64,000 nt of DNA from a virus. The stretch is from the IMG/VR virus record IMGVR_UViG_3300037475_000162, positions 1 to 64,000 of that record; one strand, given 5' to 3'. Position 1 is the stretch's first letter. Every line of letters begins with the position of its first letter. The translations under genes were made by a program, and so were the position numbers. The notes below the pieces were generated by a model that was given only the letters and a program-made list of their open reading frames with translations, made no database searches and was not told the DNA's origin. Below are positions 10,001-46,633 of this stretch, in pieces.

Positions 10001-10795
10001 GACGGCTGGATGGCCAGCAAGCTCGACGAGGAGATGCCCGACGACGAGGAGAGCATGGAGAAGTACGGCGAGGCGTGGAAGAAGTTCGGCGAGTTCCGCC
10101 GCGCCTTCGGCGAGCGCTGCGCCAAGAAGTATGGCGAGCGGTTCAAGAAATTTTCCGACGGCGGGGACATGTACCAGGGCGCGAAGGACGCCGGCTATCC
10201 CGCCGACCAGGCGGCGGCGATGGCACACAAGACGCTCAAGGACGAGGGAAAGGATCACAAGATGAGCGAGGGCGCGTTGACGGCGCTGATCCAGAAGACC
10301 GTGGCCGACGCTCTGAAAAAGGAGGTCGGCAGCAGCATCAGCAAGCTGGAGAAGTTCGACGAGGAGCTGCGCAGGGAGAAGCGCAAGGAACTGGTCGAGG
10401 GCGTCCTCGATCGGCTGGCCGACCGCATCCCGCCCGGCGAGCGCGACAACGAGCGGGCTGTGCTGGAACTGCTGGCCGACGATGCGTCCGTCCACAAGTT
10501 CAGCGAGGCCGGCGGCAAGACGTGGCAGGGCACGCGCTACCAGCAGCGCATCAAGGCGCTGGAGAAGCGCAGCCCGATCACGGCCCAGCGGATGAAGTTC
10601 GCGGAGGCCGGCGGCAGTGCGGCCGACGACGACGTTGCCCGGGTCGAGCGCTTCAGCGAGTCGCCGATCCTGGCGTCCGCGCTGGCCGCCGCGAACAAGA
10701 CGCCCGCGAAGTACGTCGAGGACTTCAAGGAATTGCGCAAGAAGAACCCCCAGCTGACCGCCACGCAGTACGGGGTGCCGGCCAACGTGGCCTGA
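7082..10795 (+). CDS. Giant fusion: SAP-containing N-terminus + Mu-I-type head maturation protease + scaffold
   Basis: A 1237-residue protein starting by ATGA overlap. Residues 1-170 are acidic. About 525-560 resemble a SAP DNA-binding helix pair (LDLPSMSPADLQGAARVLG, GGKAELIGRI), and about 635-690 a winged-helix-like segment. Residues about 735-880 fit the Mu gpI-type prohead protease (INGIELFATGNH, DDLKDMVRNFEEY, MPFVIGHGED, AAGWFKQL, AYPKVSLEIYP). From about 925 follows a highly charged helical scaffold ending in LTATQYGVPANVA. F[ST/A][E/D] motifs recur at F174, F727, F905, F918, F1024, F1140, F1173 and F1191, at the domain borders. Most Mu-like protease/scaffold proteins are about 350-400 residues, so the 700-residue extension is unusual. 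Confidence 0.8.
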   Translation: MSVYIATSEAPPAFVASNTGWGEFCRWAEHLEGAPAAAHLAAYGWTDDVEELAGELQDATGADDDVKAVAATLCGLLDGAETVVVTDGVSPGDGGSDPDSFGEDHPSPDDAPDLAEFYASLCNDLAAAGDDPGDVADEASEELAADGWSIVEDGGKWKASHESEADADEEAEKFTERAPKGGVSIGGKFFAGGKWIPNKDLANASPEDKAKLAAAKADSDTKAAGRKQERAGRGSIDVRGLQDRLAKHAGAHTLTGRERGGAAAIATLLHRHHGELALHRVEELADRVERTLKTIGDDHPNSEGLRQQFGKRLAQLHAAAERLGAKGVTGKVEKPKQAASPQANKSANPAADAAALHGDVARRLIAMNKMPPEEAKEAYAALHKDVVDRLRAMDVAHQPLSGLREIARAVPGANPRGSAHDVADSIVRTILSPMMISLEGHGTTGAQFPEDVFPSRPEKTDRRQAAEQAKADRQQAGLKRQEQERQQQAAAASPQAKTAAAAVKAVQHGAANGTGKADLDAKLDALDLPSMSPADLQGAARVLGVNASGGKAELIGRIRRSVHEIPEIRLAGAGSVSPAPAAKPEGEGAAYLAAKLKGMGVPDGPRALPASRPGKTPAEHQAAVMESIRRAGLKPGGLLSLAKLHLATGLPLADMHAAVNDLRRQGKLTGTRHESRGGLPRDVAAAALTDPGGGQIHHVSVREEGGGHGPARHAERFPRLASALLRFSEGGGSDLHRINGIELFATGNHRGVDYTLDDLKDMVRNFEEYSAPRENRAPRQAMPFVIGHGEDQSILERSDLPAAGWFKQLGIRPSPIPEDPGRYVLEGDAADVPGKVARLIRSRAYPKVSLEIYPPELHPFKGRGMMARRAAMLGGDVPQVKDLDDIPRPEPMSEPARRWPTILRFSESATVRGCLAFFSEVIDMDPEQLKSKLVEQHGMDPAAVEKMHPDAMAEVCRKMDEKDAKAGMDDDKADGWMASKLDEEMPDDEESMEKYGEAWKKFGEFRRAFGERCAKKYGERFKKFSDGGDMYQGAKDAGYPADQAAAMAHKTLKDEGKDHKMSEGALTALIQKTVADALKKEVGSSISKLEKFDEELRREKRKELVEGVLDRLADRIPPGERDNERAVLELLADDASVHKFSEAGGKTWQGTRYQQRIKALEKRSPITAQRMKFAEAGGSAADDDVARVERFSESPILASALAAANKTPAKYVEDFKELRKKNPQLTATQYGVPANVA

Positions 10796-10851: not shown

Positions 10852-11643
10852 GTGGCGAATGCAACCTCCAGGGTGGCCCGCGCGGTCCGCGGCTACCGCG
10901 ACGAGATCCTCACCCACAGCTACGGGACCGTCAGCAGCAAGACGCAGCTGTACACGACGGCCATGCTCGGCCTGAACGCCGGCTATCTGACCAAGTTCGA
11001 CGACACCGGCGCCTACACGTTCTTCGGCCTGGTCAACGAGGACGAGGGCAACCCGGTCGTGCCCAGCGACGGCACGACCTCGGCCACGGCCGGGGCGAAC
11101 AGTCTCGGCGTGGACGTGCGACAGCCGCCCGCCTTCGAGCTGAACATCGCCAGCGTCGCCATCACCGACATCGGCCGCCGCGTCTACGCGCTGGACGATC
11201 AGACGGGGACGCTCGATCCGTCGGCCACGACGTACGGCAACCTGATCGGCACGGTAAAGGATCTGATCTTCGCGGCGGACGGCGGCAGTCCGGTGGCGAA
11301 CTACGCCCTGGTTGCGCCGATCTACGGAACGCCGGTGGGCGGCCGGTTGCAGGTCTTCAGCGCTTCAGGCGCCATCCAGCAGCGCAGCAGCATCGTGTGG
11401 CTGAAGGGCAACAGCGCCCTGGCGATGACGCTGGCCAACCCGACGACGCTCGTACAGGACGGCATGACGATCGAGATCATCGAGACGGGCACCGGCGCTC
11501 ACACTGTCACCACCGGCAGCAACGGCATCAACGGGGCCAGCCATATCGCCACCTTCGGCGGGGCCGCCGGCGACAACCTCGTGCTGATCGCCCTGGGCGG
11601 CAGCTGGTACGTGGAATCGTCCGTGGGCGTCGTCCTGAGTTGA
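10852..11643 (+). CDS. Probable capsid decoration or minor head protein
   Basis: A 263-residue protein with a GTG start behind a strong AGAGAGGT site. It sits between protease/scaffold and major capsid gene, the usual place for decoration protein. It is Gly/Ala/Thr-rich and beta-stranded; the first half (residues 1-150, with FFGLVNEDEGNPVVP and AITDIGRRVYALDD) is like decoration proteins of other phages, while the second half (from VASGAIQQRSSI to the end) reads like a separate beta domain. The assignment rests on position and composition. Confidence 0.5.
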   Translation: MANATSRVARAVRGYRDEILTHSYGTVSSKTQLYTTAMLGLNAGYLTKFDDTGAYTFFGLVNEDEGNPVVPSDGTTSATAGANSLGVDVRQPPAFELNIASVAITDIGRRVYALDDQTGTLDPSATTYGNLIGTVKDLIFAADGGSPVANYALVAPIYGTPVGGRLQVFSASGAIQQRSSIVWLKGNSALAMTLANPTTLVQDGMTIEIIETGTGAHTVTTGSNGINGASHIATFGGAAGDNLVLIALGGSWYVESSVGVVLS

Positions 11644-42249: not shown

Positions 42250-42897
42250 GTGAGCGACTGGACCAATCTCCTGAGCGCCGCCGCCGCCGATCCGGCCGAC
42301 GTGCTGCCCCGCATGCAGATGGCGGACCATCTGCGCGACGAGGGGCGCAGCGAGGCGGTTGCCCTGGAGTCGTTCGGGCCGATGCCGTTTTCGTGGTGGT
42401 CGAACGAACGGCTGTTTTTCGACAGCAGCAGCGGCAGCGGCAGCGGCAGAGGCAGCGGCAGCGGCATCGGCAGCGGCATCGGCAGAGGCAGCGGCATCGG
42501 CAGAGGCAGCGGCAGAGGCAGCGGCAGCGGCAGCGGCAGCGGCAGCGGCATCGGCAGCGGCATCGGCAGCGGCATCGGCAGCGGCAGCGGCAGCGGCAGC
42601 GGCAGCGGCAGCGGAGTCTTCTTCATGGAAACCGGCAAGGCGTACCTCGTTCACTGCGGCGACTGGCACACGATTGTCGGGCGCGTCGTCCGCCAGGCCG
42701 GCCCATTTCTCTACGAGATGGAGACGGTCTCAAAAATCTCCGAGACGAACAACGGAGATTGCTGGGAGGAACTGGCGGGCGGAAACGTACAGATGCGCGC
42801 CGCCTGCAACTACAAGCACTACAAGGTGCGCGCCCTGGTGCCCTTGAATGTGCTCTGTTTTGAATGGCTCGGATTACTTCCACAGGAGGCCCTCTGA
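42250..42897 (+). CDS. Ser-Gly repeat protein with TIGR02996-like N-terminus
   Basis: A 215-residue protein with a GTG start behind GGAGAGGAGAC. Residues 1-45 match the planctomycete repeat-companion pattern (ADPADVLPRMQMADHLRDEGR). Residues about 59-122 are almost pure Gly-Ser with scattered Ile and Arg, encoded by tandem GGCAGC-type hexamers. Residues about 125-215 form a compact alpha/beta domain (KAYLVHCGDWHTIVGRVV...). The linker length is expected to vary by slippage. Function unknown. Confidence 0.65.
   Translation: MSDWTNLLSAAAADPADVLPRMQMADHLRDEGRSEAVALESFGPMPFSWWSNERLFFDSSSGSGSGRGSGSGIGSGIGRGSGIGRGSGRGSGSGSGSGSGIGSGIGSGIGSGSGSGSGSGSGVFFMETGKAYLVHCGDWHTIVGRVVRQAGPFLYEMETVSKISETNNGDCWEELAGGNVQMRAACNYKHYKVRALVPLNVLCFEWLGLLPQEAL
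42424..42615 (+). repeat. Tandem hexanucleotide (GGCAGC)n repeat, coding
   Basis: About 32 copies of GGCAGC with variants GGCATC and GGCAGA over 192 bases. Insertion or deletion of whole units keeps frame in the SG-repeat gene. All six frames are open across it, hence the many spurious frames seen here. Confidence 0.9.
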
Positions 42898-45396: not shown

Positions 45397-45637
45397 AGGC
45401 GTCCCGGATTACATCGGCTACGGCCCCATTGACCCGCGCATGGCCGCACTCCGTTGTGCGGAGAAGACGGCGCGGGAGAACGTGTATCGGGACAAGCGGT
45501 ATGCAAAAGCGAAGGCGAGTCAGATGCGGAGAGCGACGGGCGAGCCGAAGCTGATGAGTTTCAGGTGCCACCACTGCGGCAAGTACCACCTGGGGAAGCG
45601 GAAGCCGCCCCAGAGCGCAGAAGACCACGGAGGGTAA
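45389..45637 (+). CDS. Small Zn-binding protein
   Basis: An 82-residue protein. The ATG at 45389 is preferred because GGAGG lies 8 bases upstream; ATG 45371 is possible. It has basic helices and a C-terminal CHHCGKYHLGK metal motif. Confidence 0.6.
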   Translation: MPEGVPDYIGYGPIDPRMAALRCAEKTARENVYRDKRYAKAKASQMRRATGEPKLMSFRCHHCGKYHLGKRKPPQSAEDHGG

Positions 45638-45848
45638 CGCGGCCACGGAACGGCTGCGAGGAATCGCGGGCGCGGGCCAGCACAGGAGATACCCGCCCCG
45701 CCGGTGTGAGCGATGGAGGCAGGGGCCGACCCCCGCCAACCCCGCGGTTCCGACAAGACAGTGAGGGAGAAGCGTGCCGAGCTTCCACGCCCCGCTTGCG
45801 GGAGTGACCATGATCGGCCCCAGTACCTTGCTCGGGTTAGCTTGCGGG

Positions 45849-45969
45849 GTGACAGCCCGGAGAGACGGGATCGGGGGGCAGCGATCTGCCGGACAAATGG
45901 GAGAGACCACTGGGAAAACGTCCGGCCTCTGGTGTAAAGAGACGTGACAGCCGGAGAGACGGCAGATCC
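45849..45969 (+). repeat. Two covarying GTGACA-hairpin repeats
   Basis: Copy 1 at 45849-45872, copy 2 at 45944-45969, 95 bases apart. Both have GTGACA, a 4-base stem, GAGAGA loop, and ATC/AGATC after it. The stems differ by compensatory changes (CCCG/CGGG versus GCCG/CGGC), which indicates selection on structure. Confidence 0.6.
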
Positions 45970-46036
45970 CCTGGACGCCGGCCCTTTGCGGCCGGGCCCC
46001 GCCGAGAGGCGGGCCGTAGCGACGGTCGGGGGACTT

Positions 46037-46145
46037 GGGGCTTGGGCGGGCACGGCGACCCGCGGTAATCCTGCAAAGACCACACGACAGGAACCGGCCG
46101 AAAGAGGCTCAAGATAGGTAGCTGGTTCGACTCCAGCAAGCTCCA
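46037..46145 (+). ncRNA. tRNA-like element (T arm, D arm, acceptor; no clear anticodon arm)
   Basis: T arm GCTGG-TTCGACT-CCAGC (46121-46137) is followed by AAGCTCC, which can pair with GGGGCTT (46037-46043, one G-U). A D-arm-like hairpin GCGG-CCGC lies at 46046-46063. The part between is long and lacks a good anticodon stem (a GCA-like loop is seen). It could be a degenerate tRNA or a tRNA-like domain of a larger RNA. Antisense frames over it read ELAGVEPAT and MLESNQLP, well-known antisense-tRNA signatures. Confidence 0.4.
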
Positions 46146-46237
46146 CTGCCCGGCGGCAGCACTTCGCGGGGTGTACCCACGAAGTCAGGACATGATGGCT
46201 GGGCCTGCCGCCGGGCAAGACACACGGGAGACGGCAA

Positions 46238-46633
46238 ATGTACACGGACGTATCGACCGCGGGCAGGACGCCGCGCCAACCGCCCGACAGGATCGTGAGC
46301 ATGGGAACGCAACTCAGAGATTGGCTGGATTCCGCCGCCAACCTTTCCGACGGCCCGGACTACCTGCGCCGCTGGGGCGAGCAGGCCGTCGCCGGCGAGG
46401 CCGCGCTCCGCGCCGCGGGACGCGCCGACCTGGCCGAGCTGGTCGCCGTGCAGGGGCGGACGTGCGCCCTGGTCGCGGTGTGGCTGCACGATCTGTTGAC
46501 CGCGCCGCGCCTGCTGCCGTTCCCCGTGCGGCCGGCGCCGCGGCGATTCTGGCAGCGCGGATCGTCGCTCTGGTCGCGCCTGCGGACGGCGGCGCGAAAC
46601 GTGTTGCTCGGCCGGCCGCGGAGGGGATTCTAA
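46238..46633 (+). CDS. Hypothetical helical protein
   Basis: A 131-residue protein with CGGGAGACGG upstream of the ATG; ATG 46301 is an alternative. The core (TQLRDWLDSAANLSDGPDYL, GEQAVAGEAALRAAGRADL, AVQGRTCALVAVWLHDLL) is helical. The C-terminus is basic. Function unknown. Confidence 0.5.
   Translation: MYTDVSTAGRTPRQPPDRIVSMGTQLRDWLDSAANLSDGPDYLRRWGEQAVAGEAALRAAGRADLAELVAVQGRTCALVAVWLHDLLTAPRLLPFPVRPAPRRFWQRGSSLWSRLRTAARNVLLGRPRRGF

Follow-up and report, generated by a model that had tools for sequence, protein, structure and literature searches.

What does a gap of 600 nucleotides between two open reading frames of a phage encode? The region, at 45638-46237 of the window (the whole 64,000-nucleotide stretch of DNA analysed here, contained in a 64.9-kb IMG/VR virus record), is present once in the record and had been read, in an earlier note on the sequence, as a possible large ornate RNA with internal covariation, similar to GOLLD and ROOL and perhaps a class of planctomycete phages. 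The region is indeed gene-free: it lies between an 88-codon ORF that ends at 45637 and the next ORF, which starts at 46238, and the ORFs that run through the gap on both strands (antisense up to 367 amino acids) match no Pfam or PHROG family, by which a coding reading was ruled out.

Content of the gap

A search of the window against Rfam 15 returned nothing at the cut-offs, and neither the GOLLD nor the ROOL model matched, so that the proposed likeness in kind to these large RNAs was not borne out. The folding energy of the whole region is not unusual on either strand (z of −1.45, and −1.50 for the reverse strand); minimum energy gives no support for one large RNA, and the evidence for structure therefore has to come from relatives. 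None were found when they were sought via the neighbouring PAPS reductase.

The downstream part of the region, on the + strand, contains a tRNA-like fold at 46036-46145, made of an acceptor-like 8-bp helix (46036-46043 with 46138-46145), a D-arm-like hairpin (46046-46063) and a T arm (46121-46137, GCTGG-TTCGACT-CCAGC) that is continuous with the acceptor-like helix. The T arm reported previously is therefore present, but it belongs to no recognizable tRNA, as ARAGORN called none in the region and Rfam gave only a sub-threshold tRNA-Sec match to the fold (23 bits, where the cut-off is 47; E 0.05). A normal anticodon arm is absent and no complete cloverleaf with a 7-nt anticodon loop was found. 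The fold is followed by a long hairpin at 46147-46217 (+), identified by repeat search, whose closing helix is a perfect inverted repeat of 13 bp (46147-46159 with 46205-46217), in agreement with the earlier note; it has no U-run after it. No homologue connects the T arm or the 13-bp helix with the module of ~50 nt described below. Elsewhere in the window, at 42370-42640, a simple-repeat tract lies within apparently coding DNA; according to the frame read, the ORFs there encode long stretches of (GS)n, (AE/AS)n or (RQ)n.

The repeated module and its helices

Judged by comparison of sequences, what is conserved in the region is a module of ~50 nt in tandem copies and not a 600-nt ornate RNA. 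On the same comparative evidence, each unit consists of an H-type pseudoknot, then a GACA linker, then a hairpin (P2) with a GARAGA loop; the stems of the pseudoknot are P1, ACNNN/NNNGU, and a second one that joins the 5' flank to the first bases of the P1 loop. A covariance model, R1, was trained on 36 sequences, window copies included, and scores strongly at exactly two positions of the window, both on the + strand. In copy 1 (45819-45876; cmsearch 38.2 bits, E 1.7e-7, the copy being in the training set), P1 is formed by ACCTT 45825-45829 with GGGGT 45846-45850, and by eye CCC 45819-45821 may pair with GGG 45834-45836 to complete the pseudoknot; the GACA linker occupies 45851-45854, and P2 pairs CCCG 45856-45859 with CGGG 45866-45869 around the loop GAGAGA 45860-45865. 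Copy 2 (45912-45970; 39.7 bits, E 7.4e-8, likewise a training sequence) has a P1 of ACGTC 45918-45922 with GACGT 45941-45945, the linker at 45946-45949 and a P2 of GCCG 45950-45953 with CGGC 45960-45963 around GAGAGA 45954-45959. It has no clear pseudoknot partner, and a 22-nt stretch of it is matched identically in Morganella and Providencia phages. The two P2 hairpins, 45856-45869 and 45950-45963, are the pair of GAGAGA-loop hairpins seen before. A possible degenerate third copy at 45877-45909 (+), with a GGCAG/CTGCC hairpin, GGACA and TGG-GAGAGA-CCA, was recognised by eye and is missed by R1. Because the window copies are in the R1 training set, the independent support is that the core recurs elsewhere. 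At least two units lie within 700 nt at 33 of 169 loci (~20%), where the background density is 0.008 units per kb.

The 20-nt pattern GTGACAGCCNGGAGAGACGG, taken from copy 1, recurs in at least 119 IMG/VR stretches, where fewer than one exact match would be expected by chance for its 19 specified bases (collection size assumed to be ~50 Gb). The flanks of these matches are unrelated in sequence, yet they carry a changing stem directly 5' of GACAG, with ACGCC/GGCGT, ACGTC/GACGT, ACGAC/GTCGT, ACCGC/GCGGT and other variants of P1. Among the matches listed, an AC-started helix of at least 5 bp was present within 40 nt in 46 of the 92 dereplicated and unselected flanks, compared with a mean of 16.3 and a maximum of 27 after shuffling (500 shuffles). 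A second pattern, in which the P1 stem was fixed and the hairpin left free, was run against IMG/VR; among the matches listed, the P2 stems vary in a compensating manner (CCG/CGG, GCC/GGC, CGT/ACG, GAC/GTC and CAA/TTG) and enclose a nearly invariant GGAGAGAC. A GAAAGA variant of the loop also exists (47 matches), and the loop is thus GARAGA.

For the pseudoknot, ACGCC is preceded by GA, and the bases just 5' of this GA can pair with the start of the P1 loop; among the listed matches of the second pattern, 48 of 81 form 3 bp or more in this way (shuffled mean 22.7, maximum 35, 1000 shuffles). Both junction-nearest pairs form in 38 of 79 sequences of a set chosen blind to this pairing (shuffled mean 13.6, maximum 26, 2000 shuffles). 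In a gap-free alignment of 60 sequences, P1 and the pseudoknot gave a covariation score of 0.398, against 0.125 when shuffled and at most 0.13 when slid, and each of the three pseudoknot pairs occurs as several standard pair types; since P1 was the selection criterion for this alignment, the fair tests are the 92 flanks for P1 and the 79 sequences for the pseudoknot. Taken together, the collected homologues indicate that P1, the pseudoknot and P2 all show compensatory changes, in excess of shuffled controls. The internal covariation proposed earlier is therefore genuine as far as homologues are concerned, whereas the two hairpins of one sequence, on which it had been based, are no test of covariation.

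Distribution and genomic setting

In bacterial data with one genome per species, the pattern GTGACAGCCNGGAGAGACGG gave 36 matches, many of them in MAGs, from about ten phyla, which by record titles are Pseudomonadota, Bacillota, Spirochaetota, Chloroflexota, Cyanobacteria, Acidobacteriota, Planctomycetota, Bacteroidota, Kiritimatiellae and Chlorobiota; the suggested restriction to planctomycete phages has thus to be abandoned. Nine of ten bacterial genomes searched contain exactly one locus and the tenth none at the cut-off, and some genes beside the element in bacterial genomes, one for a head-tail adaptor among them, are clearly those of phages. Of 52 virus records, nearly all carry a single locus, made up of one to three units, and the hosts of the annotated phages are Morganella, Providencia, Pseudomonas, Rhodobacter, Erwinia, Mannheimia, Rhizobium, Sinorhizobium, Stenotrophomonas, Bacteroides and a cyanobacterium. 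In the named phages, nothing is annotated at the match except for one promoter call and some hypothetical proteins. Rfam 15 has no family at the element, either in the window or at 36 related loci, and full-text literature searches, both for the sequence itself and for structured RNAs of phages, gave nothing relevant, most subscription journals and preprints lying outside the search, so that an earlier description is possible. What stands of the original proposal is a phage-borne structured RNA, often near tRNAs, that is absent from Rfam 15.

Genes around the element were predicted by a simple caller that relies on composition. Both neighbours run in the direction of the element at 115 loci and both run against it at 5, and at 32 of the 115 a start codon lies 20-29 nt past the hairpin, a sharp peak within one 10-nt bin, mostly with a Shine-Dalgarno-like sequence between the two. 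Such spacing would suit a 5' leader by which the downstream message is better translated or more stable, as a standby site or through protection of the 5' end, but this role appears improbable, as the element also precedes tRNAs, which are untranslated, and at many loci, that of the window among them, the next 60 nt contain no start codon. Intrinsic terminators are not enriched downstream (0.174 versus 0.185 per kb), nor are promoter-like sites just upstream, and the element therefore does not have the appearance of a simple promoter-proximal leader. No gene family prevails next to the element, the commonest accounting for 4 of 135 genes downstream and for 4 of 139 upstream, by which a gene-specific riboswitch was ruled out. 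The element looks gene-indifferent, residing in phage transcripts and usually between cistrons or tRNAs.

Known ribozyme classes are often indifferent to their neighbours and phage-borne as well, and the element could be a small self-cleaving ribozyme, or a site for a host RNase, that separates cistrons or tRNAs and sets the downstream 5' end. The compact pseudoknot with its invariant unpaired GACA and GARAGA is consistent with this, as is the position of the 3' end, which adjoins start codons at the above peak and also tRNA 5' ends, several tRNAs beginning 3-20 nt beyond the hairpin; on the upstream side, the spacing from the preceding gene varies widely (median near 200 nt). We nevertheless regard cleavage or processing as unlikely, given that there is usually a single locus per genome and that no Rfam ribozyme family is found at the element.

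A same-strand tRNA lies within 500 nt of the element at 18 of 101 loci and an opposite-strand one at none, and orphan T arms occur at 0.21 against 0.03 per kb. Together with the single locus per phage, the broad non-coding space upstream and, in the window, the tRNA-like fold and long helix downstream of the element, this association might mean that the unit serves as the 3' domain of a longer, GOLLD- or ROOL-like phage RNA that varies in its 5' part and acts in trans as a decoy or regulator. We consider this quite unlikely, since a sizeable minority of loci have almost no upstream room, the sequence shared between loci is limited to tRNA-like parts and self-repeats, no Rfam family matches and the folding energy is ordinary.

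In Erwinia phage phiEt88 the element is found just after a Q-like antiterminator gene. In Stenotrophomonas phage BUCT708 (L131:2380-3120, +), a leader of ~700 nt contains two R1 matches and several more look-alike GGGAAAGACC hairpins, with a strong intrinsic terminator, GCCCGGGCGCCCCGGGCATTTTTTT, between; this leader is a good natural test case for antitermination.

Some contigs that bear the element also carry other RNAs. In large-phage contigs we observed a non-coding RNA of ~380 nt with look-alikes of two parts of 23S rRNA. One resembles the GTPase centre to which L11 binds (GTTGGCTTAGGAGCAGCCATCATCTAAGGAGT) and the other the sarcin-ricin loop, with AGTACGAGAGGAAC in a GC hairpin; ~245 nt separate them. 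The RNA is found at L229:2300-2680 (+) and L037:9930-10330 (−), which align over their whole length; the sarcin-ricin hairpin is shared by L353 (+), and the GTPase-centre part occurs alone at L309:4405-4451 (−). A GARAGA element is nearby in L229, L037 and L309. The GTPase centre and the sarcin-ricin loop are far apart in the 23S sequence and together form the factor-binding site, and the ~380-nt RNA is possibly a ribosome mimic or decoy. L037 is a 358-kb phage contig with a tmRNA and 13 tRNAs in the stretch analysed, and an Rfam DUF3800-VI RNA (11039-11087, −) lies in the same long non-coding region as its ~380-nt RNA. Two Type-P5 twister ribozymes are present at L240:8709-8773 and 10161-10226 (+), on the strand opposite to the GARAGA element, and a permuted tmRNA at L219:2878-3196 (+), where the phage contig, of 221 kb, also has tRNAs and the element close by.

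Proposed action and comparison with known RNAs

The reading that we favour, tentatively and by analogy, is that the element may be an RNA that acts on RNA polymerase in the manner of the put RNA of phage HK022. The region would then be an untranslated stretch of a phage transcript with tandem copies of the element; the nascent element would fold on leaving RNA polymerase and bind around the RNA exit channel, as put does, and the bound polymerase would not stop at pauses or terminators, or within untranslated stretches, of which tRNA genes are an example. No phage protein would be needed, and any bacterium with the conserved polymerase surface would be suitable. Protein-free action on a conserved polymerase would explain why the hosts are so varied, why no partner gene accompanies the element and why each phage has a single locus. 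The broader claim, that phages of about ten phyla carry an unrecorded class of RNA that is either a protein-free universal modifier of RNA polymerase or a new self-cleaving ribozyme, falls in our estimate a little short of an even chance. If the element is put-like, RNA-only control of the host polymerase would be used by phages of many phyla and would not be an enterobacterial oddity, and if it is self-cleaving, it would add a class to the known ribozymes. In both cases, a conserved phage pseudoknot RNA is absent from current annotation, and it can now be searched for in phage genomes by a simple pattern or a covariance model.

Among known systems, GOLLD and ROOL are likewise phage-borne and often beside tRNAs, but their models do not match and the conserved unit of the element is ~50 nt, not hundreds. 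The ToxI RNAs of type III toxin-antitoxin systems, which are known from phages too, are tandem pseudoknot RNAs like the element; unlike them, its units are not near-identical repeats and share no common downstream gene. The boxB site of lambda, in a phage leader, is a GC hairpin with a purine-rich loop as is P2, whereas the loop of the element is the six-nucleotide GARAGA, a pseudoknot is attached and no N-like neighbour gene recurs. Two further candidates were rejected: a CsrA-type site, considered for the GGA loop, was set aside because the matches include hosts from which, to our knowledge, CsrA is mostly absent, and a likeness to helix 93 of 23S rRNA (GAACGUCGUGAGACAG) was ruled out because the base pairing differs.

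The closest comparison is with put. In the cryo-EM structure of put, nucleotides 3-7 pair with 15-19, A9 pairs with G35 and stem I continues into stem II, and the RNA sits on the zinc-binding domain of β′ and suppresses pausing without a protein (PMC9378689). The pairing of stem I, 10-14 with 30-34, was read from the putL sequence and the published pairs (PMC9378689), putL being located in HK022 by 26 of 26 published residues (AGACG-AA-CGGCG-CGTCT...CGTCG-G). Both put and the element are phage RNAs with two stems, an H-type pseudoknotted first stem and an A-rich linker, and the strands follow in the same order, the consensus x-GA-ACGCC-n-x' of the element corresponding to AGACG-AA-CGGCG-CGTCT of putL, with GAACG at the corresponding place and linker lengths that differ slightly. 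H-type pseudoknots are common, so the shared topology may be a result of convergence, and the lack of enrichment of terminators downstream and of promoter-like sites just upstream also weighs against a put-like role. Stem II of put is ~35 nt long with internal loops, in contrast to GACA and a GARAGA hairpin of 4-5 bp in the element; R1 gave no significant match in the put region of HK022 (best 9.4 bits), and blastn with putL found matches in enterobacterial phages only. As phiEt88 carries a true putL elsewhere than its GARAGA element, the two are distinct, and these differences together place the element outside the put family. Put is the best structural precedent for an element that is missing from Rfam 15, and the two also resemble each other in their setting, since the element is co-directional and may sit between cistrons near the next start codon, as does putR, 39 nt before cII in HK022.
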